Shown here one piece after another: positions 2,756-21,213 of a DNA stretch of 64,000 bases. Origin of the DNA: an uncultured Prevotellaceae bacterium (lineage in GTDB: Bacteria; Bacteroidota; Bacteroidia; Bacteroidales; Bacteroidaceae); the NCBI GenBank assembly GCA_902767775.1, contig CACXIP010000004.1, positions 1-64,000 of the forward strand, read 5' to 3'. How positions within the stretch are numbered: the first letter of the stretch is position 1; every line of letters begins with the position of its first letter. A program made the translations under genes and the position numbers. Under the pieces are notes generated by a model, which worked only from the letters and a program-made list of their open reading frames with translations, was not told the origin of the DNA and ran no database searches.

Positions 2756-5700
2756 ATGAGAATGAGAAATTATACCAAATTATTAATGTTATTTGTTCTC
2801 TGCCTGGTAGGCATGCAGGGCAATGCGCAGAACGTGACCATCAGAGGTAACAACGGCAATTTGATACCTGCCGTTAAGGACTATGGCACGGGCGACTCTT
2901 TTTATGCCGCTGGAGGTTATGCCACATGGCAGCATGAGCAGCTGTGTATGGTGATGACAGTATCCGACAACACCAACCTGACACCTAATGGCCAGTTGGA
3001 CAACCCAGCCAACAACATTTTCAAAGATGGAGACAACATCCAGATAGCCCATGGTTTGGCAAGTGATGCTAATGTTTGCTATGTGTCAATCAGTTTGCCA
3101 AGTGGATATCGTTTCACGGGATATAGTATAACTTTCTCTAAGCCTAGACAGTTGAGTAAGGGTAGACTTGTATTCAATGATGCAGATGCCTCGTCAACTT
3201 TTGGAGAGACTGTCAGAAGCTTTGCTTCCTATATTCCAGATACGCACCAAGATTCAGACCCAGAGAAAGCGATTGTCTCAAGTGCTGATGTGTCTCGGGG
3301 TGGGGCTTCAAGGACAATCAAACGCGAAGGAACTGAAGAAAACATGAGTAATGTGCTGTATTTCAAATTGCAAAATCCAAGTTCCACTCGTGCTTTAATT
3401 AATATTGAGCATGCAGAATTTTGGTTCACAGCAGAAGAGAATTACACGCCTCTGACTCCTGCCAGCCCAGTTTCATCAGTTAGTGCTGTGAAAGTGCCTT
3501 TCTCCACCAGTAAGGTGGATTTTGGTAGGTTGGAAAGCAATACTTATCAAAATGCAACACGTATCAGTTATAGTTCTGCCAACGTCACGGACTTGGAAGC
3601 CAATTTCGATTTGTACGAGGCTGAGTCAATTACGGATGGTGCTGGTGTTGATGGCATTACAGGTCAAGTGGTTGACTACAAGGAAGGAAGCATCTCTTCT
3701 GTTGGCGGCTATTTCAAGTTTGACAGTCCCGACCAGGAGCAGGTTTATTTCATCGAGACCCCGACGTATGTAGAGGTTTCTGATGGAAGCGAGAATCCTG
3801 TGGGATATCGTATTGTTGGTGCAGAGTTTGATTATGCCACAAGTATTACTGCATCAAGGACATTCTACATTACTTACACGTATACAGGTTCTGAGTACCC
3901 TTTAAGTAACGGTACTAAGTTCTATCTGGGTACCAATGGTCGATTTGACGATACCCCAGTGATATGGGAAATGGATGGTGAGGGCTTTATTTCTACAGGT
4001 AGTGGTAATAATAAAAGATACCTTTATTTTAATAATGGTCGAATTGCAACACAAACAGCCAAACCCAGTAACAGTGAGAGATTTGCCATAGATGAGAACA
4101 ACAATATCTATCAGACAGGTTGGCCCACCTATTTTATTCGAACTGGTCAAATTACGACTTATCAAACTGGTAGTATATGGAACAGAAGAACTTATGTAGA
4201 CTATATAGAAGGCCTCATCAATCCTGATGATTATCCAAAGGCGATGTATGAGCAAATCGAAACTTCCTCTTCAAGCGTTGGCAACTTTACCCTTAAGGTT
4301 TACGACAAGGAGGGAGCCAATCCCGAAACCATCAATGTCACAGGCAATGGAACATATGAGCTTACTGGTCTGAACAACGACGCTGTGAAGTTTGGCATTA
4401 TTGGCACAGGCCTTGTCCGTGCTACCCTTACCCTTCAGGCACTTGACCCCTATCTCGACCAGATGCAGGTGGTGTGCCAGGATGAGGTGCAAACTGTCAT
4501 CCGTATGGAAGAGGGCTTCACTGCTTCCGACTTCAGCGTGAGCGGCGGTGAGTTCCACTTCTACCTGCCTACTGACTGTAACGGGCATCAGGTTGCCATC
4601 ACCTTCGAGGATTTGAATAGCAAATATTTCGATGAAACCTATCCAGATGGACATGCCGCCAATAAATCACGCCTTAACTTTGTGAAATCTCTTCACTACG
4701 ATGCCTTTGGAGCATCCAACAATAATGTCTATACCAATGTTGGTGAGGCAAAGAATGCTACATTGGAGAGACTGAAGGTTGGCGTCGTGGGAACCACCCC
4801 ATTCAAGTTCAACAATGCTGCCGACATTGGCACTCAAGGCGGAACTTATAGGGAGTATCCCTTCTCCTTGGAGAAATATGCTGATTCACCCAACTCGGGT
4901 AGTTTCAGTGAATTCAAGTTCACTGTGTCCAGCACACCTTCAACTCAGACACGCTATGTGTTCACCACAGATGAGACGCGCTACAACATTGCCCCGACCA
5001 CTGCCACACAGCACCGCGCATATGCTTTCTATACGATGAAAGTAACCGTGGAAACAGGTACTTATGAGCCGAAGGTGACCTTCGAGCCGATTTATGCCTA
5101 TACCAACTACGACAACAGTGCAGAAAGTGGCGGTAGCACTGATGAGAACAAGGCGTTCTATGGTGCAAAGGTGACTGCCTCAGACGGTAATGGTAAAGCA
5201 GGGTATTCTTCGATTAACGAAATTTACGAGGTTATTACAAATGCTGTAGGTAAGACAAATGCTCCTGAGACCACCAAGCAAATCCTCTATATAGACATGA
5301 CTGAAATGGCCGGTATCTATGAGGGCAGTACTGTGGCTTATCCCACTGCAATGTCTGTTAGTGATTTCTTGAGCAATCATGCAAAGAACAGCCTTGTGTT
5401 CCTGCCTGTGGGCGTTTCTGCTTCTGGCGACAACGTGGTTTACCAGTTGTCAGATAAATCATTCAAGGCAGCCAACAACATCGTGCTGACCGACAAGCAG
5501 CCGTTCTACTCACCTTATAACATCCAGGTAGACCAGGCCAAATATGCTAAGTATACCCGTGTGCTCACTTATGCCGACTACGGCAAGGACGTGAAGGCCA
5601 TGGTGATGCTGCCTTATGCCCTGACCGTTGCGAATGGCAAGCACACCAACCCTGCAGTTGCAGAGCAACAAGAAGGCAAGAACTCGTTCTGGGTGAAGGA

Positions 5701-6442
5701 GATGAAGGCAGCCAGCCTGGTGGAGCAGACACGCAGCCACGACTACGGCATCGCCTATTTCGAGAACGTCAATGGCGCAAAGACTGCCGCCAACAGGCCT
5801 TACATGGTGCTGGTGGATGAGGCTTCCGTTGAGGGAGACGTTTCATTCGTCGCCATTGAGAAGGGTGCCCTTATCCAGGCCACCTCTGGCATGTCGCCAA
5901 GAAACGGCACAGGTGAGAATGGTGCTTACAAATACGATTACCTTTACACAGGCGAGACAGTGTCTGGCTCATTGGATACTCCGGGAATGAACGTGACCCT
6001 TACAAGCGAGGGCAGCTACTCCGGCCAGAAGTATGACCGTGCCGACAGCGAGAAAATCTTCTACTTCGCCAACAACAGCTTCTACAACCTCTACAAGCTG
6101 ATGAAGACCAAGAGGTATCTCTATATTTACCCGTTCCACCCAGTCTACTCCTTCACAGGCAACGCCAGCAGCGTGAACAAGCTCGGTGGCATTGATGTCA
6201 CCTTCGAGCCGCTTGACCTGGATGGCATCCGTGACATGGCAAAGGTCTATGCTCCCGACCTGGCAGTGAAGTCTGGCAAGGGCTACATCCAGTTCACTTC
6301 TGACAAGGACCAGACGGTGAACATCCTCTCTCTCAACGGCACTTCATACAGCAAGGTGACGATGAATGCTGGCGACAGCAAGACCATCAACCTCCCCGCT
6401 GGCGTATATGTTGTGAACAATGTCAAGATTATCGTCAAGTAA
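2756..6442 (+). CDS. Large secreted protein with T9SS-type C-terminal domain
   Basis: This is a roughly 1228-residue protein. It begins with a signal peptide (MRMRNYTKLLMLFVLCLVGM, cleaved after GNAQ). The body is rich in Thr, Ser, Asn and beta-strand patterns with no enzyme motif that I recognise. The last 80 residues look like a T9SS type A sorting domain: a hydrophobic beta-sandwich with YIQFTSDKDQTVNILSLNG, then GVYVVNNVKIIVK at the very end. ATG 2756 is preferred because it gives a compact signal peptide; ATG 2729 and ATG 2762 are alternatives. It is followed 41 bp later by a small peptide gene. The T9SS core genes lie just downstream, so this is a likely cargo. Specific function unknown. 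Confidence 0.8.
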   Translation: MRMRNYTKLLMLFVLCLVGMQGNAQNVTIRGNNGNLIPAVKDYGTGDSFYAAGGYATWQHEQLCMVMTVSDNTNLTPNGQLDNPANNIFKDGDNIQIAHGLASDANVCYVSISLPSGYRFTGYSITFSKPRQLSKGRLVFNDADASSTFGETVRSFASYIPDTHQDSDPEKAIVSSADVSRGGASRTIKREGTEENMSNVLYFKLQNPSSTRALINIEHAEFWFTAEENYTPLTPASPVSSVSAVKVPFSTSKVDFGRLESNTYQNATRISYSSANVTDLEANFDLYEAESITDGAGVDGITGQVVDYKEGSISSVGGYFKFDSPDQEQVYFIETPTYVEVSDGSENPVGYRIVGAEFDYATSITASRTFYITYTYTGSEYPLSNGTKFYLGTNGRFDDTPVIWEMDGEGFISTGSGNNKRYLYFNNGRIATQTAKPSNSERFAIDENNNIYQTGWPTYFIRTGQITTYQTGSIWNRRTYVDYIEGLINPDDYPKAMYEQIETSSSSVGNFTLKVYDKEGANPETINVTGNGTYELTGLNNDAVKFGIIGTGLVRATLTLQALDPYLDQMQVVCQDEVQTVIRMEEGFTASDFSVSGGEFHFYLPTDCNGHQVAITFEDLNSKYFDETYPDGHAANKSRLNFVKSLHYDAFGASNNNVYTNVGEAKNATLERLKVGVVGTTPFKFNNAADIGTQGGTYREYPFSLEKYADSPNSGSFSEFKFTVSSTPSTQTRYVFTTDETRYNIAPTTATQHRAYAFYTMKVTVETGTYEPKVTFEPIYAYTNYDNSAESGGSTDENKAFYGAKVTASDGNGKAGYSSINEIYEVITNAVGKTNAPETTKQILYIDMTEMAGIYEGSTVAYPTAMSVSDFLSNHAKNSLVFLPVGVSASGDNVVYQLSDKSFKAANNIVLTDKQPFYSPYNIQVDQAKYAKYTRVLTYADYGKDVKAMVMLPYALTVANGKHTNPAVAEQQEGKNSFWVKEMKAASLVEQTRSHDYGIAYFENVNGAKTAANRPYMVLVDEASVEGDVSFVAIEKGALIQATSGMSPRNGTGENGAYKYDYLYTGETVSGSLDTPGMNVTLTSEGSYSGQKYDRADSEKIFYFANNSFYNLYKLMKTKRYLYIYPFHPVYSFTGNASSVNKLGGIDVTFEPLDLDGIRDMAKVYAPDLAVKSGKGYIQFTSDKDQTVNILSLNGTSYSKVTMNAGDSKTINLPAGVYVVNNVKIIVK

Positions 6443-6483
6443 GACCATAAAACGTCAAATAAGACCATTAAACAGTAAAGGAT

Positions 6484-6657
6484 ATGAAAGCAATATATAT
6501 CAAGCCCATTACGGAGAAAGTGAACCTCAATTTGAAGAAAGCCATCAACTGGGGTGATGATGCCACCAGCCAATGGCCTGACCATGGTGCTAACGAAGGT
6601 GAATTCTTCGAAGAGGAGGGCGTTGACGACGAGTACGATCCGTTCTTCGACGAGTAA
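6484..6657 (+). CDS. Small acidic YIKP peptide
   Basis: A 57-residue reading frame beginning MKAIYIKPITEKVNLNLKKA and ending in a very acidic tail (EEEGVDDEYDPFFDE). It starts 41 bp after the large secreted protein and before the terminator, so it should be on the same transcript. Its N-terminus aligns with the peptide at 20963-21133 (MREYIKPQTEIVAS): M-x(1-2)-YIKP-x-TE-x-V. There is no signal peptide or membrane segment. The product could be a ribosomally made peptide precursor, a chaperone-like partner of the upstream cargo or a regulator; none can be chosen from sequence. Confidence 0.75.
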   Translation: MKAIYIKPITEKVNLNLKKAINWGDDATSQWPDHGANEGEFFEEEGVDDEYDPFFDE

Positions 6658-6679
6658 ATGATAACATACCGATGGTGGC

Positions 6680-6699
6680 GGACGCGACATGTCGCGTCC
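6680..6699. repeat. REP-like palindrome, copy 1
   Basis: GGACGCGACATGTCGCGTCC is a perfect 20-bp palindrome followed by CT. A near copy with the same arms is at 6861-6880. The type resembles dispersed extragenic palindromes. Confidence 0.7.
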
Positions 6700-6725
6700 C
6701 TGCCTGAGGTAGCACATAACACTGA

Positions 6726-6757
6726 CGGCACCGATGGGCTCAACCCCATCGGTGCCG
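6726..6757 (+). terminator. Terminator-type hairpin after secreted protein operon
   Basis: CGGCACCGATGGG (6726-6738) and CCCATCGGTGCCG (6745-6757) form a perfect 13-bp stem with a 6-nt loop. Only a weak T stretch (CTGTGTTT) follows. It lies about 70 bp after the small peptide gene. Confidence 0.65.
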
Positions 6758-6860
6758 CTGTGTTTAAAGTGGGGAGCGCGAATGCATTCATGATTCATTA
6801 TATGGGAATTATATGTTTTTCTTTCACATGAATTGCCACGAGTTGGCCATGATTTTTTTC

Positions 6861-6880
6861 GGACGCGATACATCGCGTCC
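6861..6880. repeat. REP-like palindrome, copy 2
   Basis: GGACGCGATACATCGCGTCC has 9-bp arms (GGACGCGAT/ATCGCGTCC) around AC and, like copy 1 at 6680-6699, is followed by CCT/CT. Both copies are on the flanks of the terminator hairpin and short repeats. Confidence 0.65.
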
Positions 6881-6916
6881 CTACGCTGAACCACCGAATT
6901 AATTGGGGCATATGTC

Positions 6917-6952
6917 TAAACTCCTACACTTCTAGACTCCTAAACTCCTTAA
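6917..6952 (-). repeat. 8-bp tandem repeat, AGGAGTYT family (reverse)
   Basis: Read on the minus strand the units are AGGAGTTT, AGGAGTCT, AGAAGTGT, AGGAGTTT with an 8-bp period. The third unit equals the third unit of the array at 29104-29135. Confidence 0.75.
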
Positions 6953-6956
6953 TATT

Positions 6957-6986
6957 TAAACCACGAAAGGCACGAAACTTCACGGA
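6957..6986 (+). repeat. 9-bp degenerate repeat, TTTCGTG family
   Basis: AAACCACGAAAGGCACGAAA followed by CTTCACGG; read on the minus strand it is CGTGAAGTT, TCGTGCCTT, TCGTGGTTT at 9-bp spacing. It matches the element at 2367-2394. Confidence 0.55.
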
Positions 6987-7070
6987 TGCCAGACCTTCTG
7001 TTTGGGCACCGCTGGTCTCAAAAACTGACTTGCTCAAATAATAAATTGGCTATTATCACGTTATTTAAAC

Positions 7071-8009
7071 GTGTTAATACGAAAAATCCTGTTTCTCGTG
7101 GTATTGGCAGTCGCTCCGCTCGTTGCCAAAGCCCAGTATGATGTGCCTTTTGGCCATTACTGGGTCATGGAGCCGTATTTCAACCCCGGGTCGGTGGGAA
7201 AGGAGTCGAAACTCAACATCGGCGCCGCATACGCCATGAACTTCGTCGGCTTCGAGCACAGTCCCAAAACCATGTACATCAGCGGCGACATGCCCTTCCT
7301 CCTCGGCAACTCCACCCACGGCGTGGGACTCCAGCTCGTCAACGACCAACTCGGACTCTTCACCCACCAGCGCCTGTCGGGACAGTACGCCTTCAAGGCC
7401 AAACTCTTCGGAGGCATGTTCAGCGTGGGTATCCAGGCCGGACTGCTCATGGAGAACATGGACGGCAGCAAGCTCGATCTCGATGTCACCAACGACCCCG
7501 CATTCTCCACCTCGGAAGTCAAGGGACAGGCCCTCGACCTCGGCGCCGGACTCTACTATGTACACAAGACATGGTATGTGGGCGTCTCCGCCCAGCACCT
7601 CACGGCACCCAAAGTCGAACTCGGCGAGACCAACGAGTTGCAAATCGACCGAACCTATTATTTGACAGGTGGATACAATATTCGGCTGAGAAATCCGTTT
7701 CTTACTATACATCCCACCTTTCTCGTGAGGACCGACGGCGTAGGATATAGGGGCGACATCACCGCACGGCTCGCCTACCATCACGACGAGAAGCATTTCT
7801 ATGCCGGCGTGGGATACAGTCCCACCAACTCAGTCACTGCGATGATAGGAGGTGTCGTACACGGCATCCACATCGGATACAGCTATGAGTTTTACACCAC
7901 CGGCATCAGCATCGGAAATGGCAGTCATGAGCTGTTCGTAGGCTTTCAGACCGACCTCAACATGGAGAAGAAAGGAAAGAACAAGCACAAAAGCGTGCGT
8001 ATATTATAA
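7071..8009 (+). CDS. porP: PorP/SprF-family T9SS outer-membrane protein
   Basis: This 312-residue protein has a signal peptide (LIRKILFLVVLAVAPLVAKA, cleaved before QYDVPF). The mature part follows the PorP/SprF pattern: FNPGSVGKESKLNIGAAY near the N-terminus, then alternating amphipathic strands of an outer-membrane barrel. In the T9SS, PorP-type proteins associate with the PorK/N ring and the PorE anchor. The reading frame opens at a GTG at 7071; no in-frame ATG precedes the signal peptide. It is the first gene of the porP-gldK-gldL-gldM-gldN block and ends 43 bp before gldK. Confidence 0.9.
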   Translation: MLIRKILFLVVLAVAPLVAKAQYDVPFGHYWVMEPYFNPGSVGKESKLNIGAAYAMNFVGFEHSPKTMYISGDMPFLLGNSTHGVGLQLVNDQLGLFTHQRLSGQYAFKAKLFGGMFSVGIQAGLLMENMDGSKLDLDVTNDPAFSTSEVKGQALDLGAGLYYVHKTWYVGVSAQHLTAPKVELGETNELQIDRTYYLTGGYNIRLRNPFLTIHPTFLVRTDGVGYRGDITARLAYHHDEKHFYAGVGYSPTNSVTAMIGGVVHGIHIGYSYEFYTTGISIGNGSHELFVGFQTDLNMEKKGKNKHKSVRIL

Positions 8010-8052
8010 TGTCGAGCATAGACAAAACTTGAAAAATAGGTAATCTGTGAAT

Positions 8053-9501
8053 ATGAGAATGAGAAACATCGTTGCTGCCCTCTGTGTCGTCACCCTCGTG
8101 GCGCTCACAGGATGCATGGGCGGCAAGTCGGCCACCTCATCGGGAAGGGGTGGCGAGGTCACCGGCGTGGGCGGAGGAAGATCCTTCAAGGAGCCTGCGC
8201 CATATGGCATGACCATGGTCAAGAGAGGATTCCTCAAGATGGGCATCGACCAGCAGGACACACTGTGGGGCAAGCAGACCCCCGTCAAGGAAATTTCCGT
8301 CGACGGGTTCTGGATGGACGAGACCGAGGTGACCAACTCCAAATACAAGCAGTTTGTCTTCTGGGTGCGCGACTCCATCATCCGCGAGCGCCTCGCCGAC
8401 CCCGCCTATGGTGGCGACGAGACCTACAAAATCACAGAGGACAAGAACGGCGACCCCGTGACACCCCACCTCGACTGGAAGAAGTCGCTGCCGCGCAAGC
8501 CCAACGAGGATGAGTTGCGTGCCATCGAGAGCCTCTACATCACCAACCCCGTCACCGGTGAGAAGTCGCTCGACGCCAGTCAGCTCAACTACCGCTATGA
8601 AATCTACGACTACACCACGGCGGCGCTGAGGCGCAACAGGCTGCGCCCTGAGGAGCGCAACCTCAACACCGATATCGTCGTCGACCCCAACGAGGAGGTG
8701 ATGATATCCAAGGACACCGCATACATCGACGACGAGGGACGCATCGTCAGAGAGACCATCAACCGGCCGCTCTCCGGACCGTGGGACTTCCTCAACACCT
8801 ATATCGTCAACATCTACCCCGACACCACATGTTGGGTCAACGACTTCCGCAACTCCGACAACGAGATGTATCTGCGCAACTATTTCAGCAACCCCACCTA
8901 CAACGACTATCCCGTGGTGGGCGTGACATGGGAACAGGCCAACGCCTTCTGCGCATGGCGCACCGACTACCTGCTCAAGGGCCTCGGACCAGAGGCTCGC
9001 TATGTGCAGCGCTACCGTCTGCCCACAGAGGCAGAGTGGGAGTATGCCGCCCGTGGCAAGGACGGTGCGGAGTTCCCTTGGGAGAATGAGGATGTGAAGA
9101 ATGGCGACGGGTGCTTCTACGCCAACTTCAAGCCCGACAAGGGCAACTACACCAAGGACGGCAACCTCATCACCAGCAAGGTGGGCATCTATTCCGCCAA
9201 CACCAACGGCCTCTTCGATATGGCGGGCAACGTGGCGGAATGGACCAGTACCATCTTTACCGAGGCGGGTGTCGACGCCATGAACGACCTCAACCCGCAG
9301 TTGGAATACAAGGCTGCCAAGGAAGACCCCTACAGGCTCAAGAAAAAGAGCGTCCGCGGCGGTTCGTGGAAAGACCCCGAGTCGTATATCCGCTCCGCAT
9401 GGCGCTCATGGGAATACCAAAACCAGCCGCGCTCTTACATCGGCTTCCGCTGCGTACGCAGCATCGCCTCATCATCAAGCGTAAAACAGAAGAAAAGATA
9501 G
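8053..9501 (+). CDS. gldK: T9SS ring lipoprotein GldK/PorK
   Basis: This 482-residue lipoprotein has the lipobox LTGC with Cys21. The rest is an FGE-sulfatase (SUMF1-like) fold, with MTMVKRGFLKMG near residue 55, EWEYAARGK in the middle, and RGGSWKDP...YIGFRCVRS at the end. In the T9SS, GldK/PorK forms the periplasmic ring with GldN/PorN under the outer membrane. The ATG at 8053 is preferred over a GTG six bases upstream. It lies between porP and gldL; the gap to gldL (about 90 bp) is filled with two short-repeat arrays. Confidence 0.93.
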   Translation: MRMRNIVAALCVVTLVALTGCMGGKSATSSGRGGEVTGVGGGRSFKEPAPYGMTMVKRGFLKMGIDQQDTLWGKQTPVKEISVDGFWMDETEVTNSKYKQFVFWVRDSIIRERLADPAYGGDETYKITEDKNGDPVTPHLDWKKSLPRKPNEDELRAIESLYITNPVTGEKSLDASQLNYRYEIYDYTTAALRRNRLRPEERNLNTDIVVDPNEEVMISKDTAYIDDEGRIVRETINRPLSGPWDFLNTYIVNIYPDTTCWVNDFRNSDNEMYLRNYFSNPTYNDYPVVGVTWEQANAFCAWRTDYLLKGLGPEARYVQRYRLPTEAEWEYAARGKDGAEFPWENEDVKNGDGCFYANFKPDKGNYTKDGNLITSKVGIYSANTNGLFDMAGNVAEWTSTIFTEAGVDAMNDLNPQLEYKAAKEDPYRLKKKSVRGGSWKDPESYIRSAWRSWEYQNQPRSYIGFRCVRSIASSSSVKQKKR

Positions 9502-9544
9502 TTAGACAGGTCCGACAAGTCCGACAAGTCCGACAGGTCCGACG
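9502..9544 (+). repeat. 9-bp tandem repeat, TCYGACRRG family
   Basis: Starting at the gldK stop codon, one degenerate (TTAGACAGG) and four good units (TCCGACAAG/TCCGACAGG) follow at 9-bp spacing. The array fills the intercistronic gap together with the next repeat. Confidence 0.85.
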
Positions 9545-9548
9545 AAAA

Positions 9549-9585
9549 ATCTCAAATCTCAAATCTCAAACCTCAAACCTCAAGC
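9549..9585 (+). repeat. 7-bp tandem repeat, CTCAAAY family
   Basis: Five heptads (CTCAAAT, CTCAAAT, CTCAAAC, CTCAAAC, CTCAAGC) lie between the 9-bp array and the gldL start at 9592. Confidence 0.8.
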
Positions 9586-9591
9586 ATCCCC

Positions 9592-10611
9592 ATGACCAGA
9601 TATAGTAAATTCAATGTCATCTACCTGCTCCAGAAATGGATGGACAGCGTGCCAGGACAGACCTTCCTCAACTACGCATACAGTTGGGGTGCGTCAATCG
9701 TGATCCTGGGAACCCTTTTCAAACTGACCCATATCCCGGGCGCCAACCTCATGCTGTTCATCGGTATGGGCACCGAGGTGTTCGTGTTCTTCATCTCTGC
9801 CTTCGATCGGCCTTTCGACAAGACGACCGACGGTATGGACCTCCAGACACATTATGGGGAAAACCTCTCCCCAGCCATCTCCGAAGGAGAGGGAGTGTCT
9901 GACGGGTCTGACGAGTCTGACAAGTCCGACGTTGCTGGAGTGGCTGCCGCATATGGCAGTGGCGGCGGCGTTGTCGGCGGCAGCGGTGGTGTTGTCGGTG
10001 GCAGTGGCGGCGTTGTCGGCGGCAGTGGCGGCGTTGTCGGTGGCAGTGGCGGCGTTGTCGGTGGCAGTGGCGGCACTATCATTATCGGCGGCATCCCCGG
10101 TCAGTCCGACCAGTCCGACCAGTCCGACATGTCCGACGTGTCCGACGGTGTTGCTGGTGTTGCTGGTGCTGGTGTTGCCGGTGTGGCTGTGGCAGGCGCT
10201 GGCGGCGCTGGCGGTCCTGGCGGTGTCTCCACTACATGGCTCGGACAGCAGCAACAAGTGTCGCCTGAGATGGCTGAGGCCACTGAGAACTATGTAGAGG
10301 AACTTAAGAAGCTCACTGAGATGCTTGGAAAGGTCAACGAACAGAGCATACGCCTGACCCGCGACTCCGAGGAGATGGAGAATCTCAACCGCACGCTCAC
10401 CGGCATCTGCAAGGTGTATGAGATGCAGCTCAAGAGCGCCAGTCAGCAGATTGGCACCATCGACCAAATCAACGACCAGACGAAGCACATGGCACAGCAG
10501 ATAGAGCAACTCAACCAAATCTACGCACGCATGATAGAGGCCATGACGGTCAATATGAGGGGCGCTGCTCCCTCGCAGCCCGGTGCACAACCCATCAACC
10601 TCAATCCATAG
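9592..10611 (+). CDS. gldL: T9SS inner-membrane motor subunit GldL with repeat-encoded insert
   Basis: This 339-residue protein begins with two transmembrane helices (about residues 30-50 and 53-70; YSWGASIVILGTLFKLTHIP, MLFIGMGTEVFVFFIS) that mark GldL/PorL, the inner-membrane partner of GldM in the proton-driven T9SS motor. The C-terminal third (from about residue 222) is the expected coiled coil (ENYVEELKKLTEMLGKVNEQ...). Between them, about residues 95-220, is an unusual low-complexity insert: Ser-Asp repeats (SDGSDESDKSD), five or more GGSGGVV heptapeptides, a second Ser-Asp block (SDQSDQSDMSDVSD) and an Ala-Gly-Val stretch. The Ser-Asp blocks are encoded by the same 9-bp DNA repeat found between genes. 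The protein is longer than I expect for the family. It is followed 18 bp later by gldM. Confidence 0.92.
   Translation: MTRYSKFNVIYLLQKWMDSVPGQTFLNYAYSWGASIVILGTLFKLTHIPGANLMLFIGMGTEVFVFFISAFDRPFDKTTDGMDLQTHYGENLSPAISEGEGVSDGSDESDKSDVAGVAAAYGSGGGVVGGSGGVVGGSGGVVGGSGGVVGGSGGVVGGSGGTIIIGGIPGQSDQSDQSDMSDVSDGVAGVAGAGVAGVAVAGAGGAGGPGGVSTTWLGQQQQVSPEMAEATENYVEELKKLTEMLGKVNEQSIRLTRDSEEMENLNRTLTGICKVYEMQLKSASQQIGTIDQINDQTKHMAQQIEQLNQIYARMIEAMTVNMRGAAPSQPGAQPINLNP
9898..9930 (+). repeat. 9-bp TCYGACRRG repeat inside gldL (first block)
   Basis: Four units (TCTGACGGG, TCTGACGAG, TCTGACAAG, TCCGAC) in frame with gldL, encoding SDGSDESDKSD. Confidence 0.85.
9958..10080 (+). repeat. 21-bp tandem repeat inside gldL (GGSGGVV)
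   Basis: A 21-bp unit, about GGCAGTGGCGGCGTTGTCGGT, is repeated five to six times and encodes Gly-Gly-Ser-Gly-Gly-Val-Val. The copies are nearly identical, so the block is prone to length change by slippage. Confidence 0.85.
10105..10146 (+). repeat. 9-bp TCYGACRRG repeat inside gldL (second block)
   Basis: Five TCCGAC units at exact 9-bp spacing (spacers CAG, CAG, ATG, GTG), in frame, encoding SDQSDQSDMSDVSD. Confidence 0.85.
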
Positions 10612-10629
10612 TACAACAACTCCACGACA

Positions 10630-12186
10630 ATGGCTATCAAGAAAAGACCGGTCTCGCCGCGCCAGAAGATGATCAACCTCATGTATGTCGTCCTCATGGC
10701 CATGCTTGCCCTCAACATCTCCACAGAGGTGCTCGATGGCTTCTCCATCGTGGAGGAAAGCCTCAAGCGCACCACTGCCAACTCGTCGAAGGAGAACCTC
10801 GCCATGATGGCTGACCTCGACGAGCAGATGAAGGCCAACCCCGTGAAGGTGAAGGAGTGGTTTGAGAAAGCTCAAGGCGTCAAGTCCATGACCGACTCGC
10901 TCTATGACTTCGCCCAGCAACTCAAGGAGGCGATTGTCAAAGAGGCTGACGGCAAGGACGGAGACCTCAACAATATCCGCAACAAGGAAGATCTGGAGGC
11001 TGCCACACAGGTGATGCTCGCCCCTGGCACCGGCAAAGGAAAAAAACTCTTCCAGGCCATCAACTCCTACCGCGAGCGCATCCTTAAGATGGTGGATGAC
11101 CCCAGACAGAAAGAAATCATCACCAGCAACCTCTCCACCGAAGTGCCCAAAGGAGCCAACACACTGGGGAAGAACTGGCAGGAATATATGTTCGAGGACA
11201 TGCCCGTGGCGGCTGCCGTCACCCTGCTTACCAAACTGCAGAGCGACATCCGCTATGCGGAGGGAGAGGTGCTCCACTCCCTCGTCGCCAACATCGGACT
11301 GAAGGACATCAGGGTCAACAAACTCGAGGCGTTTGTCGTGCCCGACAAGACGACGCTCTATCCGGGCGAGCGCCTCACCGCCAACATCATCATGGCGGCG
11401 GTGGACACCACGCAGCAGCCCGAGATATTCATCAACGGCACACGCATCAACTCGCCCAACGGCACCTATTCGTTCAGCGCAGGAGGGGTGGGAGAGCACA
11501 CCTTTGGCGGCTATATCCTCATGAAGAATGCCGATGGCGAAATCGTGAGGCGCGACTTCAAGCAGAAGTACAACGTCATCTCACCGCCATCGGGAGCCAC
11601 CGTGGCTGCCGACCTCATGAACGTGCTCTACGCAGGATTCCACAACCCCATCAGCGTGAGCAGTTCGGGCATCCCGCAGAACGCCGTGTCGCTCTCCATG
11701 ACAGGCGGTACGCTCACCTCGCAGGGCAACGGACACTACATCGCCGTGCCGGCAGCCGTGGGACAGGATGTCACCTTCACCGTCACCGGTACCGACCGGG
11801 GGACCTCACGCACCATGGGGCAGGCCACTTTCCACGTGCGCAAACTGCCTGACCCAACGGCCTATATCGCCCTCGGCACCGACCGCTTCAAAGGCGGACG
11901 CCTTGCCAAGGCCTCGCTCATGAACCTCAACAGCCTCAGAGCCGCCATCGACGACGGACTCCTCGACATCGAGTTCAAGGTGGGCAGTTTCGAGACTGTC
12001 TTCTACGACAATATGGGCAACGCAGTGCCTATGGCTTCCAACGGCGCCGCCTTCTCCGAGCGGCAGAAGGATGCTTTCAGAAAACTCTCACGCAACAAGC
12101 GATTCTATATCACCAACGTGACGGCCACCGGACCCGACGGCATCACCCGCAAACTGCCGCAGGCGATGGAGGTCATCGTGAACTAA
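10630..12186 (+). CDS. gldM: T9SS motor protein GldM/PorM
   Basis: This 518-residue protein has one N-terminal transmembrane helix (MINLMYVVLMAMLALNIS, about residues 16-33) and a long periplasmic part. The start MAIKKRPVSPRQKMINLMYV is typical of GldM. The family forms the rotor shaft of the T9SS, joining the GldL inner-membrane motor to the GldK/GldN ring through four periplasmic domains. Length is normal. It lies 18 bp after gldL and 9 bp before gldN, so the three are translationally close. Confidence 0.95.
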   Translation: MAIKKRPVSPRQKMINLMYVVLMAMLALNISTEVLDGFSIVEESLKRTTANSSKENLAMMADLDEQMKANPVKVKEWFEKAQGVKSMTDSLYDFAQQLKEAIVKEADGKDGDLNNIRNKEDLEAATQVMLAPGTGKGKKLFQAINSYRERILKMVDDPRQKEIITSNLSTEVPKGANTLGKNWQEYMFEDMPVAAAVTLLTKLQSDIRYAEGEVLHSLVANIGLKDIRVNKLEAFVVPDKTTLYPGERLTANIIMAAVDTTQQPEIFINGTRINSPNGTYSFSAGGVGEHTFGGYILMKNADGEIVRRDFKQKYNVISPPSGATVAADLMNVLYAGFHNPISVSSSGIPQNAVSLSMTGGTLTSQGNGHYIAVPAAVGQDVTFTVTGTDRGTSRTMGQATFHVRKLPDPTAYIALGTDRFKGGRLAKASLMNLNSLRAAIDDGLLDIEFKVGSFETVFYDNMGNAVPMASNGAAFSERQKDAFRKLSRNKRFYITNVTATGPDGITRKLPQAMEVIVN

Positions 12187-12195
12187 CAACCATTT

Positions 12196-13248
12196 ATGCC
12201 AATGAGACGCTTCATAACCATACTGCTCTTTGCCTGTCTCGCCGGCGGCGTGATGGCGCAGCCGCAGGCCCGTCGCAACAAGCAGCAACAGGCCAACAAG
12301 TCGAACAGCAACACCATCACCACCCGCGCGCGCATCGGGTTCCCCACCACCGCCACCATGTCCGACGACGTGGTGTGGCGCCGAGATATCTACCGCGAGA
12401 TGAGTCTCGAGGATGACGCCAATGCCGGACTCTACTATCCCGTGGAGCCGATGGGCACGCAGATGAACCTTTTCACCTACCTCTTCAAACTCATGATGTC
12501 GGGATATATCAAGGCATACGAGTATAGGCTCGACGGCAACGAGGTGTTTGATGAGTCGGCGAAAGTCAAACTGCTCGACTTCCTCGACAACTACCACATC
12601 TACTATGAGCGCAAGGACGGAAAGGTGAGGCTCGACAACAGCGACATCCCCTCGCGTGAGGTAAAGGGCTATTACATCAAGGAGAGCGCCTACTACGACC
12701 AGGGCACTTCCACCTTCCACCGCAAGGTGCTTGCCCTCTGTCCCATCATGATGCGTGAGGACGACTTCGGCGACGGAGCAACCAAATATCCGCTCTTCTG
12801 GGTGAAATACGACGATGTGGCTCCCTATCTGAGCAAGCAGACCATCATGACGAGCAACATCAACAATGCTGCCACCATGAGCATCGACGACTTCTTCACA
12901 CTCAACCGCTACAAGGGAAAAATCTACAAGACCACCAATATGCTGGGGCGCACCCTGGCACAGTATTGCCCTGACGACTCCACCATGGCGTTGGAGCAGA
13001 AGCGCATTGAGCAGGAACTGCTTGACTTTGAGAAAAACCTCTTTGGCGACCAGGCAAAGAAGGACTCACTCGACAGCATCGCCAAGTTGCAGGCCGACAC
13101 CAAGACCAAGGTGAAGAAGCGCAACCGCCGCTCTGGTTCCGATGCTGGCGAGGAGAAAACGACGAAGGTGAAGAAGACACGCCGCTCGTCGCCATCTTCG
13201 GCTGCCACCACCGGCACCCGCGTCTCCGTCAGGAGAGAGAGGCACTGA
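12196..13248 (+). CDS. gldN: T9SS ring protein GldN/PorN
   Basis: This 350-residue periplasmic protein has a signal peptide (about residues 1-22, ending GGVMAQ). The core with DVVWRRDIYREMSLEDDANAGLYYPVEP is typical of GldN/PorN, which forms the ring with GldK and contacts GldM. The C-terminal 50 residues are Lys/Arg-rich and repetitive (KVKKRNRRSG, KVKKTRRSS). ATG 12196 or ATG 12202 could be the start. It ends the T9SS block; a 12-unit repeat array follows at once. Confidence 0.93.
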   Translation: MPMRRFITILLFACLAGGVMAQPQARRNKQQQANKSNSNTITTRARIGFPTTATMSDDVVWRRDIYREMSLEDDANAGLYYPVEPMGTQMNLFTYLFKLMMSGYIKAYEYRLDGNEVFDESAKVKLLDFLDNYHIYYERKDGKVRLDNSDIPSREVKGYYIKESAYYDQGTSTFHRKVLALCPIMMREDDFGDGATKYPLFWVKYDDVAPYLSKQTIMTSNINNAATMSIDDFFTLNRYKGKIYKTTNMLGRTLAQYCPDDSTMALEQKRIEQELLDFEKNLFGDQAKKDSLDSIAKLQADTKTKVKKRNRRSGSDAGEEKTTKVKKTRRSSPSSAATTGTRVSVRRERH

Positions 13249-13259
13249 TGGCTGTCTGG

Positions 13260-13370: not shown

Positions 13371-13469
13371 AAATTAAAACGAGAAAAAACTATGTCACAG
13401 GATTTTTTGCCACATCATGGAGGCTATAAAAAACTGCGTGTCTATAAGGTCACGGAGATAATCTATGAC

Positions 13470-14102
13470 ATGACTTATTGTCCGACAAGTCCGACAGGCA
13501 AGAAGGGGTCTGTTGTTCTCTTGATTCTGCTCTTTTTATTGCCTTTGGCGGCAAAGGCTCAACTCAGTCTTGGTGTGAGGGGAGGATATAATCTTACGCA
13601 TCTCTCCCTTACCAGCGATGACATCAAGACCAACCGCTATGGGTTTTTCGTCGGACCGGCGCTATGCATCAACCTGCCCATAGTGGGATTGGGGCTCGAT
13701 GCCGCTGCGCTCTACGACCAGCGCGAGGCACGTATTGGCGATGACCCTGTGACTGACATTAAGCAGAAGACCGTGAACATTCCAATCAACCTGAGGTATA
13801 ATTTCGCTCCCGATGCCCCGCTGTCGCTCTTCATCTTCGCCGGACCGCAGTTCAGTTTCAACCTCAACGAAGACAAGAAGATGCTAGACACGATGAGGGA
13901 GTGGCGCTTCAACAAGTCGGTGATGAGTGTGAACGTAGGTGCGGGAGCTGCCATAGTCAGAAACCTGCAGCTGTCGCTCAACTACAACATCGTGTGCGGC
14001 GAGACCGCCACCATCACCTCTTTGCAGGATGTCGTCGATGGAGTGAAGGAACACAAGGCCAAGGCCCACGCCTGGCAATTGGCGCTGTCCCTCTATTTTT
14101 GA
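13470..14102 (+). CDS. Outer-membrane beta-barrel protein (PorT-like family)
   Basis: Taken from ATG 13470 this is a 210-residue protein; an upstream in-frame ATG at 13392 would add 26 residues that do not look like a signal peptide. The signal peptide is KKGSVVLLILLFLLPLAAKA, cleaved before QLSLGVRGGYN. The mature part is a small barrel of the outer_membrane_beta-brl_2 type, with GGYNLTHL, YGFFVGPALCINLPI, GLDAAALYDQ, NIPINLRYNF and a terminal Phe (LALSLYF). Two units of the 9-bp DNA repeat lie inside the coding region just before the signal peptide (encoding CPTSPTG). It lies after gldN but is not a known T9SS part. Function unknown. Confidence 0.75.
   Translation: MTYCPTSPTGKKGSVVLLILLFLLPLAAKAQLSLGVRGGYNLTHLSLTSDDIKTNRYGFFVGPALCINLPIVGLGLDAAALYDQREARIGDDPVTDIKQKTVNIPINLRYNFAPDAPLSLFIFAGPQFSFNLNEDKKMLDTMREWRFNKSVMSVNVGAGAAIVRNLQLSLNYNIVCGETATITSLQDVVDGVKEHKAKAHAWQLALSLYF
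13480..13498 (+). repeat. 9-bp TCYGACRRG repeat at start of barrel gene
   Basis: Two units (TCCGACAAG, TCCGACAGG) within the first codons of the gene at 13470, read in the frame CCG-ACA-AGT (Pro-Thr-Ser), a different frame from that used in gldL. Confidence 0.7.
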
Positions 14103-14154
14103 TACGAAAGGGATAAAGGATTTGCGGTAGTGGGCCGACGTGAAATATGAATGT

Positions 14155-14312: not shown

Positions 14313-14378
14313 CTGGGCAGAAGAAACAGCTATGCAGAAAGCCAATAATTTATAATTGGAACTAATGATTTCTTGATT

Positions 14379-14804: not shown

Positions 14805-14827
14805 ACTTTTGTTTTGCATTTCGATCA

Positions 14828-15010
14828 TTGATTTTCGCCTAGGCGACTTTATTTAAAAAGAGTGCCCTATGGGCAGAAATGGTAAAAAAATGAATAAGAA
14901 AATGATAAAAGAAAGAATAACAGGAAAAGGAAATGATATTATCTTACCTTTTTTTTTAATTATTTTCTTATAATTTCTCGCCATAGGCGACTTAATTCAT
15001 TGAAAAGAGA
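14828..15010 (+). repeat. Direct repeat flanking the GxxExxY gene, right copy
   Basis: Starts with ATTGATTTTCGCCTAGGCGA then CTTTATTTAAAAAGAGTGCC, continues with the near-identical CAGAAATGGTAAAAAAATGA block up to about 14920, then ATTATCTTACC and TAATTTCTCGCCATAGGCGA again near 14970-14990. A TTTCGCC-n-GGCGACTT block therefore occurs three times around the gene (about 14270, 14832, 14976). Confidence 0.8.
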
Positions 15011-15048
15011 ACGTTGCGATTCAATCCTTTAAATCTATCCATTTTTCA

Positions 15049-15090
15049 ATATTAATTTTTTATCTTTCATCTTTAATCTTTCATTTCTTT
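15049..15090 (+). repeat. 7-bp tandem repeat, TTTMATC family
   Basis: Heptads TTTTATC, TTTCATC, TTTAATC, TTTCATT run right up to the priA start. A closely similar array is at 34525-34558. Confidence 0.7.
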
Positions 15091-15091
15091 C

Positions 15092-17353: not shown

Positions 17354-17487
17354 TTTTTGTTCGACAAGTCTGACTACTTTTTGACATAAAATTCATAATC
17401 TGTTCCCTAAAAGTTTACGTATTTGCTTTTTTTTCAGCGTTTTTGAATATTTTTGTGAAATTTTATGCACGGTATGAAAAAAAATAT
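17354..17487. other. AT-rich spacer after priA
   Basis: Includes a degenerate two-unit TCGACAAG/TCTGAC repeat at 17361-17375 and AT-rich DNA, then the first -7-like box at 17488. No gene was seen. Confidence 0.5.
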
Positions 17488-17720
17488 TATCTTTGCTGCG
17501 CGAAGATAGGCTGCACCTCAGGAAAGCAAGCAAATGGCTTTGCTTCCATTTCCGTTCGGTTTGCACTATTTTTGCCTCGGCGAAGATAGGCTGCACCTCA
17601 GGAAAGTAAGCAAATGGCTTTGCTTCTATTTCCATTCGGTTTGCACTATTTTTGCTGCGCGAAGATAGGCTTCACCTCAGGAAAGCAAGCAAATGGCTTT
17701 GCTTCCATTTCCTCTTGTAA
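17488..17720 (+). repeat. Three tandem 80-bp promoter-like repeats
   Basis: The segment CGAAGATAGGCTGCACCTCA begins at 17501, 17581 and 17660 (third with TTCACC), so the period is 79-80 bp. Each unit has AAGCAAA-TGGC-TTTGCTT, a perfect 7-bp hairpin. Just before each unit is a -7-type box: TATCTTTG (17488-17495), TATTTTTG (17567-17574), TATTTTTG (17647-17654). This gives three promoter-like boxes in tandem upstream of the large gene at 17819; the last would yield a leader of about 160 nt. Confidence 0.85.
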
Positions 17721-17818
17721 TGCGCTGTCTTGGCACCAAAAAAGGTCATAACGACGCTGTGAAAGCGTCCCCCCTGTTTTTACCTGAGTAAAAATTATTA
17801 ACTAAATATCTGAGAATT

Positions 17819-20800
17819 ATGAATCAAAAATTACGTTTTTTCTTCACGATGCTACTATTGTCGGTAGTAAGCGTGGGGTTTGCTGGGTCTATTACCTTTG
17901 GTGAATTAGGCTTGGAAAATGATGTGCAATACTCTGATCCATTTGATGGTGGAGACTTCACTGTGACATTCGCAGGAGGTGCAAATGATGGCAAGTATTA
18001 CAATACAGGTAGTGGTATTCGTGTATATGGTAATGGAACAATGACCATAGCAGCAAAGGAAGGTAACGTTACTAGTATTACAATTACTTATGATGGAAAT
18101 AATAAACCCAGTTCAGACAATGTGGTAAATGTTGGAACATACTCATCGAGTACAGGTATGTGGACCGGGGGAGCAAGTTCTGTTGTATTCACTCGTCCAT
18201 CAGGTAGTGGCCATTGGAGAGTACAAAAAATTGAGGTGACAGTTTCGACAGGATCAGTCAAGCAAGATGCTGGTTTATCCTTCGGCTCAAATACCTCATT
18301 TACAGTTGAAGTTGGAGCAGACTTTACAGCACCAACATTAACAAACCCCAATAACCTTGAGGTAACCTATTCCTCATCTGATGAAGATATCGCTCTCGTT
18401 GACGAGACCACAGGTGAAGTGGTTCTTGGAGAAAAATTAGGAACTGCAACCATCACAGCTTCTTCAGCAGAAACAGATGACTTTTATGCAGGAAGAGCCT
18501 CTTATACAATTACCCTGAAGGCTGCTCCTGTTACAAAATCATTCCCCTGGTCAGAGGATTTCAGCAGCAACAGCCTAGAGGGATATGATATTAATGGTAA
18601 TACAAGTATACAAAATGAAAAACTTGCAGATGGCGAAGTTCCTGAATTGATGATTGGTAAGAGCGGTGGCTCATTCTCCGTTATCATAAACATGAATGGC
18701 AATCATGGAGATATGATGTTGACATTTAAAGCCAATGCCAAGAGAGTCACTGTTGATGTTGAAGGTGGAGAAAGAGGCACACTTAATTATGATACCGAAA
18801 CCAAGTTGTATTCCACCCGCATCACCGTGACAGAAGGAACACAAAAACTGACATTGACCTTCTCCAATTCACAGTCAAGTAATGTCCGTGTAGATGATTT
18901 CTTGCTAGAAAAGGCAAAAATCACCCCGAAACTATCTTTCGATGAAACAGTATTCAATGCTGAACCAGGTGCTACTTTTGAAGCTCCTCAATTGGTTAAC
19001 TTAAATGAAGTAAGCCCAGTGACTTATTCGTCAAGTGACGAAAGCCTCGCTACTGTGAATGCTTCAACAGGTGAAGTGACTATTGGTAGTAATGAAGGTT
19101 CTGTGACCATCACCGCCTCCTTCGCAGGTAATGAGACTTATTATGCTGCCAGCGCTTCCTATACAATTCAAATCGGTACTCCTCATGGCACAGCAGAGAA
19201 TCCCTACACCGTGGCAGAAGCTCGTGCCGCCATTGATGCAGGTACTGGTGTAGAAGGTGTTTATGCTACTGGTATCGTATCTGAGATTGTCACTGCTTAT
19301 AGCTCTGAATATGGAAATATATCCTATAATATTTCAGATGACGGCACCACTACTGCAGTTCAGCTCCAAGCTTTCCGTGGAAAGAGCTATAATGGAGTAG
19401 ACTTCACTTCTGAAGATGATATCAAGGTGGGTGACGTGGTTGTGATATATGGTAATTTGAAAAAATATAACACAACATACGAGTTTGATGCCAATAATCA
19501 ACTTGTCTCGCTTGAGCGTCCAGTAGTTCCAACTATCTCAGTTGAAGAAGAATTGGAGTTGGCTTATGACGCAACCTCTGGTGAGATAGAGTACACCATC
19601 GAAAATCCTGTGGAAGGCAAGTCTCTGACTGCTGAGACAACAGCCGAATGGATTTCTGACATCACTGTGGGTGCTGAATCGGTGACATTTACGACCACAG
19701 TTAATGAAAGCGATGCAGACCGCACAGCCACCATCACCTTGGCTTATGATGGTGCTGTCTCAAAGACCGTGACTGTTACACAAAAACGTTATGTTGCACC
19801 TGTCGAAACAAAGACTTATGCAAAGGTGACCAGTACAGCTGACATTACTGATGGCAACTACCTCATAGTTTATGAGGAAGGAAGTGTGGCATTCGACGGC
19901 GGTCTTGAAACATTGGATGCTGTTGGCAATACAATTGAAGTGATTTTAAATAATGGAAAGACAGAAGCACCTGAAAATGCCGCATTTACAATAGATGTAA
20001 CTAATGGAACAATTAAGAGTGCGTCAGGTTATTATATTGGATGGGATAAAGAGAAAAATGGTTTGTCTGCCAGTGCTACTGAACCATTTACAAACACCAT
20101 ATCCTATGATGCTGACAAAAAGATAGCAGTAATACAATCATCTACCAGTGCCTATTTGCAATACAATAATGATAACGGTCAGAAACGTTTCCGTTATTTT
20201 GCCTCAGGCAGCCAGAAAGCCATCCAGCTTTACAAGGAAGTGAAAGATGAACCCTACACTCTCCCCATCTCCTCTGCTGCTACTGACGGCACTTCCTTCT
20301 TTGCCACTATGGCGAATATCGGTAAGGGTAACTTTATCGTGCCTGATGGTGTGAAAGTGTCCACCGTGGAAGTCAATGATAAGGGTAAAATTATTATGAG
20401 TGAAGTAGGTCCTGTGATTCCAGGAAGCAAGGCATATCTTGTGGAGGCTTCCGAAGCCAAAGAATATACATTCGCCGTTACCACCGAAGAGCCTTCTGAC
20501 GTAACACTTGGTCTTCTTGAAGATAACATGCTCTATCCCTCAGTGAAGGGTGCTCAGACCTCAATAGTGCCTTACGGCATTGGTGAAGATAGTGATTACA
20601 CCTTCTACAAACTTGCCAATGGCAAGAAGGCCAACAGCGTAGGCTTCTATTACGGAAAAGAATATGGCGAACCCTTCGAGTCGACGAAAGAGAACGGTGC
20701 ATTCCTCGCAGTGCCAAAGGACACCTATGACCCCAGCGCAAGTGCTAATCCGGGAGTTATCCTCATTAATCCAGACGATGATGTTGACGGCATCCAGGGC

Positions 20801-20917
20801 ATCAGCACCTCTGAACTGAAGAATGCTGAGGTTTACACCCTCACCGGCGTGCGTGTACAGGGCAACCTGCAGAAGGGCATCTACATCGTCAACGGACGCA
20901 AGCAGGTGATTAAGTAG
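17819..20917 (+). CDS. Large multidomain secreted protein, putative T9SS cargo
   Basis: This 1032-residue protein has a signal peptide (about residues 1-22, ...SVVSVGFAGS). Two Ig-like segments with SSSDE(D/S)IALVDETTGEVVLG and SSSDESLATVNASTGEVTIG are visible (about 150-235 and 375-455). Residues about 460-575 (GTAENPYTVAEARAAID...GDVVVIYGNLKKYN) look like an OB-fold DUF6359 domain. Next is a BACON-like domain (about 578-660, VEEELELAYDATSGEIEYTI...VTVTQKR). A further beta domain follows, and the end (VYTLTGVRVQGNLQKGIYIV, then NGRKQVIK) is a T9SS type A sorting domain. No catalytic domain was recognised; a surface adhesin or glycan-binding role is inference. It is followed by a small YIKP peptide gene. 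Confidence 0.85.
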   Translation: MNQKLRFFFTMLLLSVVSVGFAGSITFGELGLENDVQYSDPFDGGDFTVTFAGGANDGKYYNTGSGIRVYGNGTMTIAAKEGNVTSITITYDGNNKPSSDNVVNVGTYSSSTGMWTGGASSVVFTRPSGSGHWRVQKIEVTVSTGSVKQDAGLSFGSNTSFTVEVGADFTAPTLTNPNNLEVTYSSSDEDIALVDETTGEVVLGEKLGTATITASSAETDDFYAGRASYTITLKAAPVTKSFPWSEDFSSNSLEGYDINGNTSIQNEKLADGEVPELMIGKSGGSFSVIINMNGNHGDMMLTFKANAKRVTVDVEGGERGTLNYDTETKLYSTRITVTEGTQKLTLTFSNSQSSNVRVDDFLLEKAKITPKLSFDETVFNAEPGATFEAPQLVNLNEVSPVTYSSSDESLATVNASTGEVTIGSNEGSVTITASFAGNETYYAASASYTIQIGTPHGTAENPYTVAEARAAIDAGTGVEGVYATGIVSEIVTAYSSEYGNISYNISDDGTTTAVQLQAFRGKSYNGVDFTSEDDIKVGDVVVIYGNLKKYNTTYEFDANNQLVSLERPVVPTISVEEELELAYDATSGEIEYTIENPVEGKSLTAETTAEWISDITVGAESVTFTTTVNESDADRTATITLAYDGAVSKTVTVTQKRYVAPVETKTYAKVTSTADITDGNYLIVYEEGSVAFDGGLETLDAVGNTIEVILNNGKTEAPENAAFTIDVTNGTIKSASGYYIGWDKEKNGLSASATEPFTNTISYDADKKIAVIQSSTSAYLQYNNDNGQKRFRYFASGSQKAIQLYKEVKDEPYTLPISSAATDGTSFFATMANIGKGNFIVPDGVKVSTVEVNDKGKIIMSEVGPVIPGSKAYLVEASEAKEYTFAVTTEEPSDVTLGLLEDNMLYPSVKGAQTSIVPYGIGEDSDYTFYKLANGKKANSVGFYYGKEYGEPFESTKENGAFLAVPKDTYDPSASANPGVILINPDDDVDGIQGISTSELKNAEVYTLTGVRVQGNLQKGIYIVNGRKQVIK

Positions 20918-20962
20918 GGTTAAGAAAATTCAAAACAAAAGGTCACATAACTATTGAACATT

Positions 20963-21133
20963 ATGAGAGAATACATCAAACCACAGACAGAGATCGTAGC
21001 ATCGGATATGCCTATTATGGCTGCCGGAATGTCTGGACTCAACACTGAGGTGGGTACCGGTGAGTTCGCCAACACCACCGATTTCGAGAGCGATCTCCAA
21101 CAAGTTGAGAAAAAATCTCTTTGGGAGGACTAA
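20963..21133 (+). CDS. Small YIKP peptide, second copy
   Basis: A 56-residue frame beginning MREYIKPQTEIVASDMPIMA, with a small Ala-Gly-Met-Ser-Gly segment and an acidic C-terminal half (ending KKSLWED). It starts 45 bp after the second large secreted protein and ends before a strong terminator, so it belongs to that transcript. The first 13 residues align with the peptide at 6484-6657. The M-A-A-G-M-S-G segment is reminiscent of double-Gly-type leader ends in peptide precursors, but no processing enzyme is nearby. Function unknown. Confidence 0.75.
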   Translation: MREYIKPQTEIVASDMPIMAAGMSGLNTEVGTGEFANTTDFESDLQQVEKKSLWED

Positions 21134-21173: not shown

Positions 21174-21213
21174 CGGGGCGAGCACCACAGCGGTGACTCG
21201 CCCCGATTATTTT
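21174..21213 (+). terminator. Rho-independent terminator after YIKP peptide
   Basis: CGGGGCGAG(C)ACC and GGTGACTCGCCCCG form a long GC stem around ACAGC, followed by ATTATTTT. It ends the transcript of the large secreted protein and its peptide. Confidence 0.85.

Follow-up and report, generated by a model that had tools for sequence, protein, structure and literature searches.

The main finding of this study is that the small genes lying directly behind two large secreted-protein genes in a stretch of DNA from an uncultured Prevotellaceae bacterium (contig CACXIP010000004.1, positions 1 to 64,000; hereafter the window, 64,000 nucleotides long) belong to a previously undescribed, conserved family of proteins that lack a Sec signal and adjoin genes for exported proteins. 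What is new is the gene family together with its pairing with surface-protein genes. Large secreted proteins of the window, which we call cargos, end in tails like those of substrates of the type IX secretion system (T9SS), and a sequence-only reading had proposed that such cargos are paired with small peptides starting with YIKP. This pairing proved to be real, recurrent and conserved across genomes, with many Prevotella-related gut bacteria carrying such a small gene. The system was also said to be uncharacterised, which our searches bear out: the two window peptides have no Pfam or NCBIfam match at E<=1, other scanned members gave insignificant matches only, three peptides scanned against PHROGs fell into no family, no solved structure matched the peptide family, and no description of such peptides was found in the open-licence articles searched.

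Two gene pairs of the window belong to one peptide family

The two pairs comprise the following features.

2756..6442, + strand: cargo 1, a 1228-residue secreted protein with a signal peptide and a tail ending GVYVVNNVKIIVK
6484..6657, + strand: companion peptide 1, 57 residues, MKAIYIKPITEKV...DPFFDE, 41 bp past the cargo 1 stop
6726..6757, + strand: hairpin 3' of peptide 1, 13 pairs, probable transcript end; folded region z -6.6
17819..20917, + strand: cargo 2, a 1032-residue secreted protein with Big_2 and BACON domains and tail GIYIVNGRKQVIK
20963..21133, + strand: companion peptide 2, 56 residues from ATG, MREYIKPQTEIV...KKSLWED, 45 bp past the cargo 2 stop
21174..21205, + strand: hairpin 3' of peptide 2, G+C-rich, then ATTATTTT; folded region z -4.9

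Coordinates, lengths and gaps of both pairs agree with those first reported, as does the presence of a signal peptide on two cargos of more than 1000 residues, whose Sec signal peptide-like N-termini reach a maximum 10-residue hydropathy of 3.46 (cargo 1) and 2.58 (cargo 2). It was also correctly noted that the cargos are dissimilar outside their C-terminal end (similarity confined to the final 17 residues; best E by BLASTP 0.18) and that a hairpin follows each pair, both hairpins being strong by folding. After peptide 1 it is the fold, not the terminator scan, that supports the hairpin, because the scan, run on this first region only, found one terminator versus 0.7 in shuffles. The T9SS-like tail attributed to both cargos is evident in cargo 2, which scores 60 bits with our local tail model while being itself a training row of that model, and weak in cargo 1, which scores 6.9 bits and matches TIGR04183 at E 0.0056 (16.6 bits versus a cut-off of 23). 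Full-length cargo 2 has no TIGR04183 match at E<=1. Matches below cut-off were seen to DUF6383 in cargo 1 (E 0.012) and to an OB fold in cargo 2.

Taken alone, the evidence within the window does not exceed chance, because the similarity of the two peptides to each other is not significant (E 3.6) and 13 small open reading frames (ORFs) of the window start with [YW]xxP versus 10 with the motif reversed. The proposed homology of the peptides, which fails in this direct comparison, is recovered by a family profile. Among 566 small window ORFs, a profile of 105 non-redundant peptides of other genomes ranked peptide 2 first (E 8e-6) and peptide 1 second (E 4e-4), the next ORF following at 0.16. 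Many of its training peptides were first found with search model A4, which like A3 includes window and source-genome members; others came from context-blind patterns. Judged by sequence, this profile settles that both window peptides are family members despite the chance-level evidence of the window itself. Their YIKP signature is present, but it is not exclusive, being one form of a broader Y-x-x-P motif.

The peptides are conserved at both ends and under purifying selection

Members are about 55 residues long. They start with M-x(1-5)-Y-[IV]-x-P...E-x-M-[LI]-A-A-S, vary in their middle part and have an aromatic C-terminal end. Our collection retained 143 of 176 ORFs after filtering for net acidity and a near-terminal aromatic residue, and served for consensus, dN/dS, divergence, hydropathy and the window ranking; among 30 rejects inspected, some 15 resemble genuine members. 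Since members were filtered for these very features, the acidic and aromatic character of the family is partly imposed. The consensus (n=143, positions counted from Y) reads Y1, [IV]2, P4, V9, [IV]11, E12, M16, [LI]17, A18 and S20, the P+2 residue is M (0.23), T (0.19), I (0.17), V (0.15) or A (0.11), and 133 of the 143 members have a Trp within their final 14 residues. N-termini ending in A-x-S are common to members with differing C-termini.

Purifying selection acts on the peptide, with a median dN/dS of 0.26 and none of 18 values above 1. In 35 independent pairs, the proportion of differing residues is 20% in the leader, 30% in the middle and 14% at the end, which indicates two-ended conservation around a looser middle. 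The peptides have no Sec-like signal: only 4 of 143 reach a hydropathy of 2.0, versus 2.58-3.46 for eight cargo signal peptides. Nor do the peptides have a double-glycine leader of the C39/PCAT kind: [LI]-A-A-S stands at the place of cleavage, and Gly frequencies at the last two positions are 0.10 and 0.11.

Some members depart from the usual form. At two loci (L195, L224), a single cargo gene is followed by two distinct companion peptides in a row. Eight members (L268, L288, L294, L296, L301, L309, L313, L320) form a subfamily whose middle is rich in DSDD/TSGD and whose end is of the WG[ND]LW type; five of the eight lie upstream of a lipoprotein gene, and two of the others have less than 260 bp of DNA on that side. 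At L079:2769, in T9SS-negative genome G054, a 148-residue Cys-containing protein starts YxxP...YVAAC; its contig has four copies of this DNA start, one of which was examined.

Family members adjoin genes for exported proteins

The association was measured in a context-blind sample, with upstream tails assigned by profile. A pattern scan of 84,980 species genomes, using a pattern that also selects the WG[ND]LW end, yielded 65 stretches with 66 peptides, several loci sharing a genome; all 65 come from Bacteroidales groups, mostly from ruminant metagenome-assembled genomes. An upstream ORF was defined by rule for 56 of the 66 peptides, and a tail (>=12 bits) is present in 43 of these 56 versus 11 of 183 other ORFs of the same loci (p 1.5e-25). 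Counting all upstream ORFs, 47 of 66 peptides follow a T9SS-type tail, five precede a lipoprotein gene, none does both, and five have too little upstream DNA. Peptides at random positions, or frames without conservation, would have spoken against the pairing, and the idea survived both checks, given this adjacency and the dN/dS of 0.26. Chance pairing is ruled out by tail adjacency, purifying selection and the ranking of window ORFs.

A DNA pattern designed for starts resembling M[KR]...Y-[IVM]-K-P matched the source genome nine times, and its reversed form once. In seven of the nine cases a small ORF follows a long one, whose T9SS-type tail is clear in five and weak in cargo 1 and L006; L008 and L011 are false matches. 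A profile search at E<=10 gave 19 matches, of which, by eye and coordinates, 12 lie behind a tail protein (two weak tails included), one (L141) behind a dockerin-like protein and one (L145) behind a lipoprotein. From the cargo side, 70 of the 111 tails found at E<=1 were examined; a loose rule placed a YxxP ORF behind 16 of the 70, versus five on the antisense strand, and 10 of the 16 are genuine by sequence, four of these pairs having supplied the tail model. Most cargos examined are therefore without a peptide. Upstream tails were assigned by eye here and in the second-family, best-match and T9SS-negative loci described below.

Two side observations concern this genome and its relatives. Tandem 46-residue copies differing in one residue (L150:7942-8082 and 8284-8424) have no surface-protein partner, and each is preceded by a copy of a 53-nt repeat resembling a Bacteroidetes promoter. 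Peptides in three genera (L141, L192, L254) stand behind dockerin-type repeat ends, recognised by eye, in place of a T9SS tail; such ends may mark the same export class.

Across 151 genomes of the same family, 113 with GldM (scored T9SS-positive) and 38 without, the DNA pattern gave 196 matches versus 50 controls in the positive genomes and 33 versus 26 in the others. At E<=0.01 the profile matched 92 of 113 positive versus 6 of 38 negative genomes (Fisher p 4.7e-13, the genomes not being phylogenetically independent), leaving 21 of the 113 without a match; when genomes supplying model rows are excluded, 80 of 101 positive genomes match. There are up to 26 matches per genome. Of 29 best-match loci, 28 were readable. 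In each of them a long ORF precedes the peptide at a distance of -4 to 226 bp; its tail is of the usual kind in 25 loci and a variant in three (L218, L223, L226). Rows of the search model account for 11 of these 28 peptides, and 17 are from outside it. G048 accounts for nine of the 15 matches found in negative genomes, and the seven readable ones there all stand behind tails. G048 has 18 tail matches, and T9SS may merely be absent from its assembly, its negative call depending on GldM as sole marker. Among the remaining negative genomes, the match at L231 is chance-like and L237 is a longer protein without a lipoprotein neighbour.

The association recurs in another family of the same order, in two genomes with 15 matches, 14 behind tails and one behind a dockerin-type end. 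At E<=0.001, matches were found in 5 of 295 genomes of the order (not typed for T9SS) and 2 of 296 of the phylum. Seventy genomes of other orders with GldM over cut-off gave one weak match (G152), the other 69 having none at this threshold. The search model was built from one family and may miss distant members; within that reach, the sequences suggest that the peptide is restricted to certain lineages and that T9SS as such can do without it.

A second class of relatives precedes lipoprotein genes, at 12-48 bp where measurable. Four T9SS-negative genomes contain L230, L232, L233 and L234; T9SS-positive genomes contain L083 (same genus as the source genome) and L176 (another order); and L184, L187 and L190 come from one genome not typed for T9SS. 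Profile scanning of neighbours covered ten lipoproteins, these nine and that of L320. Mfa_like_1 (fimbrillin-like) was found in three, over cut-off for L083 and L232 and below it for L233, and the remaining seven were identified by eye only. Peptides with a similar N-terminal layout thus occur alongside two export pathways that are unrelated to each other.

Cargos are diverse and probably co-transcribed with the peptide

The tail shares with the type A sorting domain TIGR04183 its short length, its position at the C-terminus of large secreted proteins and its occurrence together with T9SS genes. In 29 chosen family genomes, the tail model found it at E<=1e-4 in 14 of 14 GldM-positive and 2 of 15 negative ones (one match in G074, 18 in G048). 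Unlike TIGR04183, the ten tails scanned stay under the curated cut-off (cargo 1 as given above, L208 with 12.6 bits, the other eight without a match at E<=1), and the local tail model found none in three T9SS-positive genomes of other orders.

Domains in eight scanned cargos include BNR (sialidase-like) in two, BspA leucine-rich repeats in one, F5/8C in two and ricin-type lectin in two, one of them below cut-off. Homology of the cargo bodies was seen in 45 of 47 pairs with peptides >=80% identical, in 224 of 287 pairs at 50-80% and in 1111 of 4616 below 50%, a few rows being alternative starts or two peptides of one cargo. In the first of these groups, identity between cargo bodies is mostly 25-50% and covers part of the length. 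Given such diverse domains and the divergence of cargo bodies in this group, the peptide does not follow cargo activity.

Cargo-peptide gaps are under 60 bp in 67 of 107 cases, and the promoter motif TAnnTTTG occurs in the 40 longer gaps zero times in sense and seven times in antisense orientation. Co-transcription of cargo and peptide is therefore likely on sequence grounds.

Surroundings of the pairs in the window

Between the two pairs lies a T9SS core operon, porP-porK-porL-porM-porN (window 7071-13248), with each gene over its curated cut-off.

7071-8009, + strand: porP
8047-9501, + strand: porK/gldK
9592-10611, + strand: porL
10630-12186, + strand: porM/gldM
12196-13248, + strand: porN

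By eye, porL contains a long Gly/Val-rich low-complexity insert. Directly after porN, 13392-14102 is an outer-membrane beta-barrel gene with a weak PorT/SprT match (E 1.6e-6, below cut-off), and just 3' of the second pair, 21370-21453 is a tRNA-Leu-like gene recognised by eye only. A fixed place beside the porP operon was rejected: a pair stands there in the window, G141 and G127, and was not seen in the other 19 of 20 loci, several of them masked or short. MKAKYMKP matches beside porP in genus g22 are false.

Discussion

The strand-like YxxP start, A-x-S site, variable middle and conserved aromatic tip give these peptides a leader-core likeness. From this sequence plan, and by analogy with known leaders, it is possible, though short of probable, that the peptide is a leader-core type precursor or an adaptor recognised through its N-terminal YxxP end. 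The conserved N-terminal strand (YxxP...V-x-I-E-x-E-x-M-[LI]-A-A-S) would dock on a shared cytoplasmic receptor, as YxxP leaders do on the recognition elements of ribosomally synthesised and post-translationally modified peptides (RiPPs), and the C-terminal part with its aromatic tip would be the working or processed portion. With a common mRNA, the amount of peptide would track synthesis of the surface protein, and its action on surface display (modification, signalling or regulation) could scale with the load. The receptor, the processing and the purpose of the peptide are inferred; up to 26 copies per genome would be expected if one trans-acting receptor served them all.

Several observations weigh against this reading. 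No modifying enzyme, protease or exporter was recognised beside standalone members, by eye and from ORF ends, and no search was aimed at recognition-element genes. Resemblance to the recognition-element motif is loose, the P+2 residue of the family being mainly M, T, I, V or A versus YxxPx[LVIFA], and the Y and P are invariant because the collection pattern required both. The pairing itself has exceptions: nine of the 66 peptides of the context-blind sample have neither a tail nor a lipoprotein neighbour (three of them, L266, L286 and L317, follow sub-threshold tail-like ends), five of the 19 source-genome members (L143, L144, L146-L148, the tandem 46-residue copies among them) have no tail, dockerin or lipoprotein directly upstream, and the YVKP peptides of genus g23 (L070, L076, L077) follow large proteins without a T9SS tail. 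These g23 peptides are without the WGNLW-type end, and one of the preceding proteins starts lipoprotein-like.

About equally likely is a plain cytoplasmic accessory factor or regulator, which would bind a component of translation, stability or signalling, or the nascent cargo, and tune synthesis or export with no cleavage or modification. The lack of a Sec-like signal, probable co-transcription with the cargo, conservation of both peptide ends and the lack of enzymes recognised nearby by eye are all consistent with it, but a generic trans-acting regulator would have no need for so many copies per genome, and the leader-like A-x-S N-terminus is common to members with different C-termini. The sequence-only reading, whose interpretation is partly supported, had also named a T9SS-specific secretion partner, a pilot or chaperone of its cargo. 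Co-occurrence with T9SS in family genomes and adjacency to tail proteins point that way, yet we consider it unlikely, as lipoprotein-linked relatives occur in four T9SS-negative genomes, matches are absent from 69 of the 70 T9SS-positive genomes outside the order (with a one-family model that may miss distant members) and from 21 of the 113 within the family, genuine peptides stand behind 10 of the 70 source-genome tails examined, and the peptides have no export signal. The same 69 genomes led us to reject a core T9SS component.

If operon duplication spread the pair, the peptide could be a hitchhiker without any neighbour-linked role; cargo homology does rise with peptide identity, but this is very unlikely given that neighbours are unrelated in many cases, including the window cargos, that the association is also seen in a second family of the order, and that the peptide is under purifying selection. 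A small ORF close to its cargo and 5' of a hairpin might instead serve translation or mRNA decay as a cis-acting element, an explanation made hardly credible by protein-level selection, by standalone copies such as the tandem 46-residue pair, and by the opposite order of the two classes, one after the cargo and the other before the lipoprotein. Small genes directly after secreted-protein genes are known from protease-inhibitor pairs of the SpeB-Spi type; the cargos here have unrelated folds, too diverse for a cargo-specific inhibitor or immunity protein. There was no sign of phage origin, with no match in viral contigs using the same single narrow pattern and no PHROG for three peptides, or of plasmid spread, with no match for the one peptide searched.

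Returning to the leader-core precursor, its closest parallels are the YxxP leaders of lasso precursors (motif [Y/W]xxPx[LVIFA]) and LPP precursors, which are bound by recognition elements (PMC13381572). Likenesses are a conserved N-terminus with YxxP near the start, a variable C-terminal part and small size. Unlike in those systems, no B1/B2, cyclase, kinase, signal-peptidase-like or transporter genes were recognised beside the members examined, and the peptide copies are many, scattered and tied to surface-protein genes, with a loose P+2 fit. A survey of Bacteroidales RiPPs stresses double-glycine leaders (PMC10352776), from which the companion peptides differ. Type B T9SS cargos have a cognate PorP/SprF partner (PMC10202324), a similar clustering of cargo and partner genes; PorP/SprF is an outer-membrane beta-barrel, whereas the partner here is a 55-residue protein without a signal peptide. 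Passages of PMC12636315 and PMC7324362 contain nothing on this peptide family.

A broader proposal, which we regard as doubtful, is that T9SS-linked and fimbrillin-like lipoprotein-linked peptides form a general surface-export companion system of Bacteroidia, in which similar leader-core peptides from many surface-protein operons would be recognised by one shared cytoplasmic YxxP-reading machinery and then processed or sensed, letting the cell measure or decorate its surface output in step with its production. T9SS cargos and fimbrillins carry much of the surface work of these bacteria, including adhesion and the digestion of glycans and proteins, and a conserved, unnamed gene beside so many surface proteins suggests a missing step in making or controlling them.

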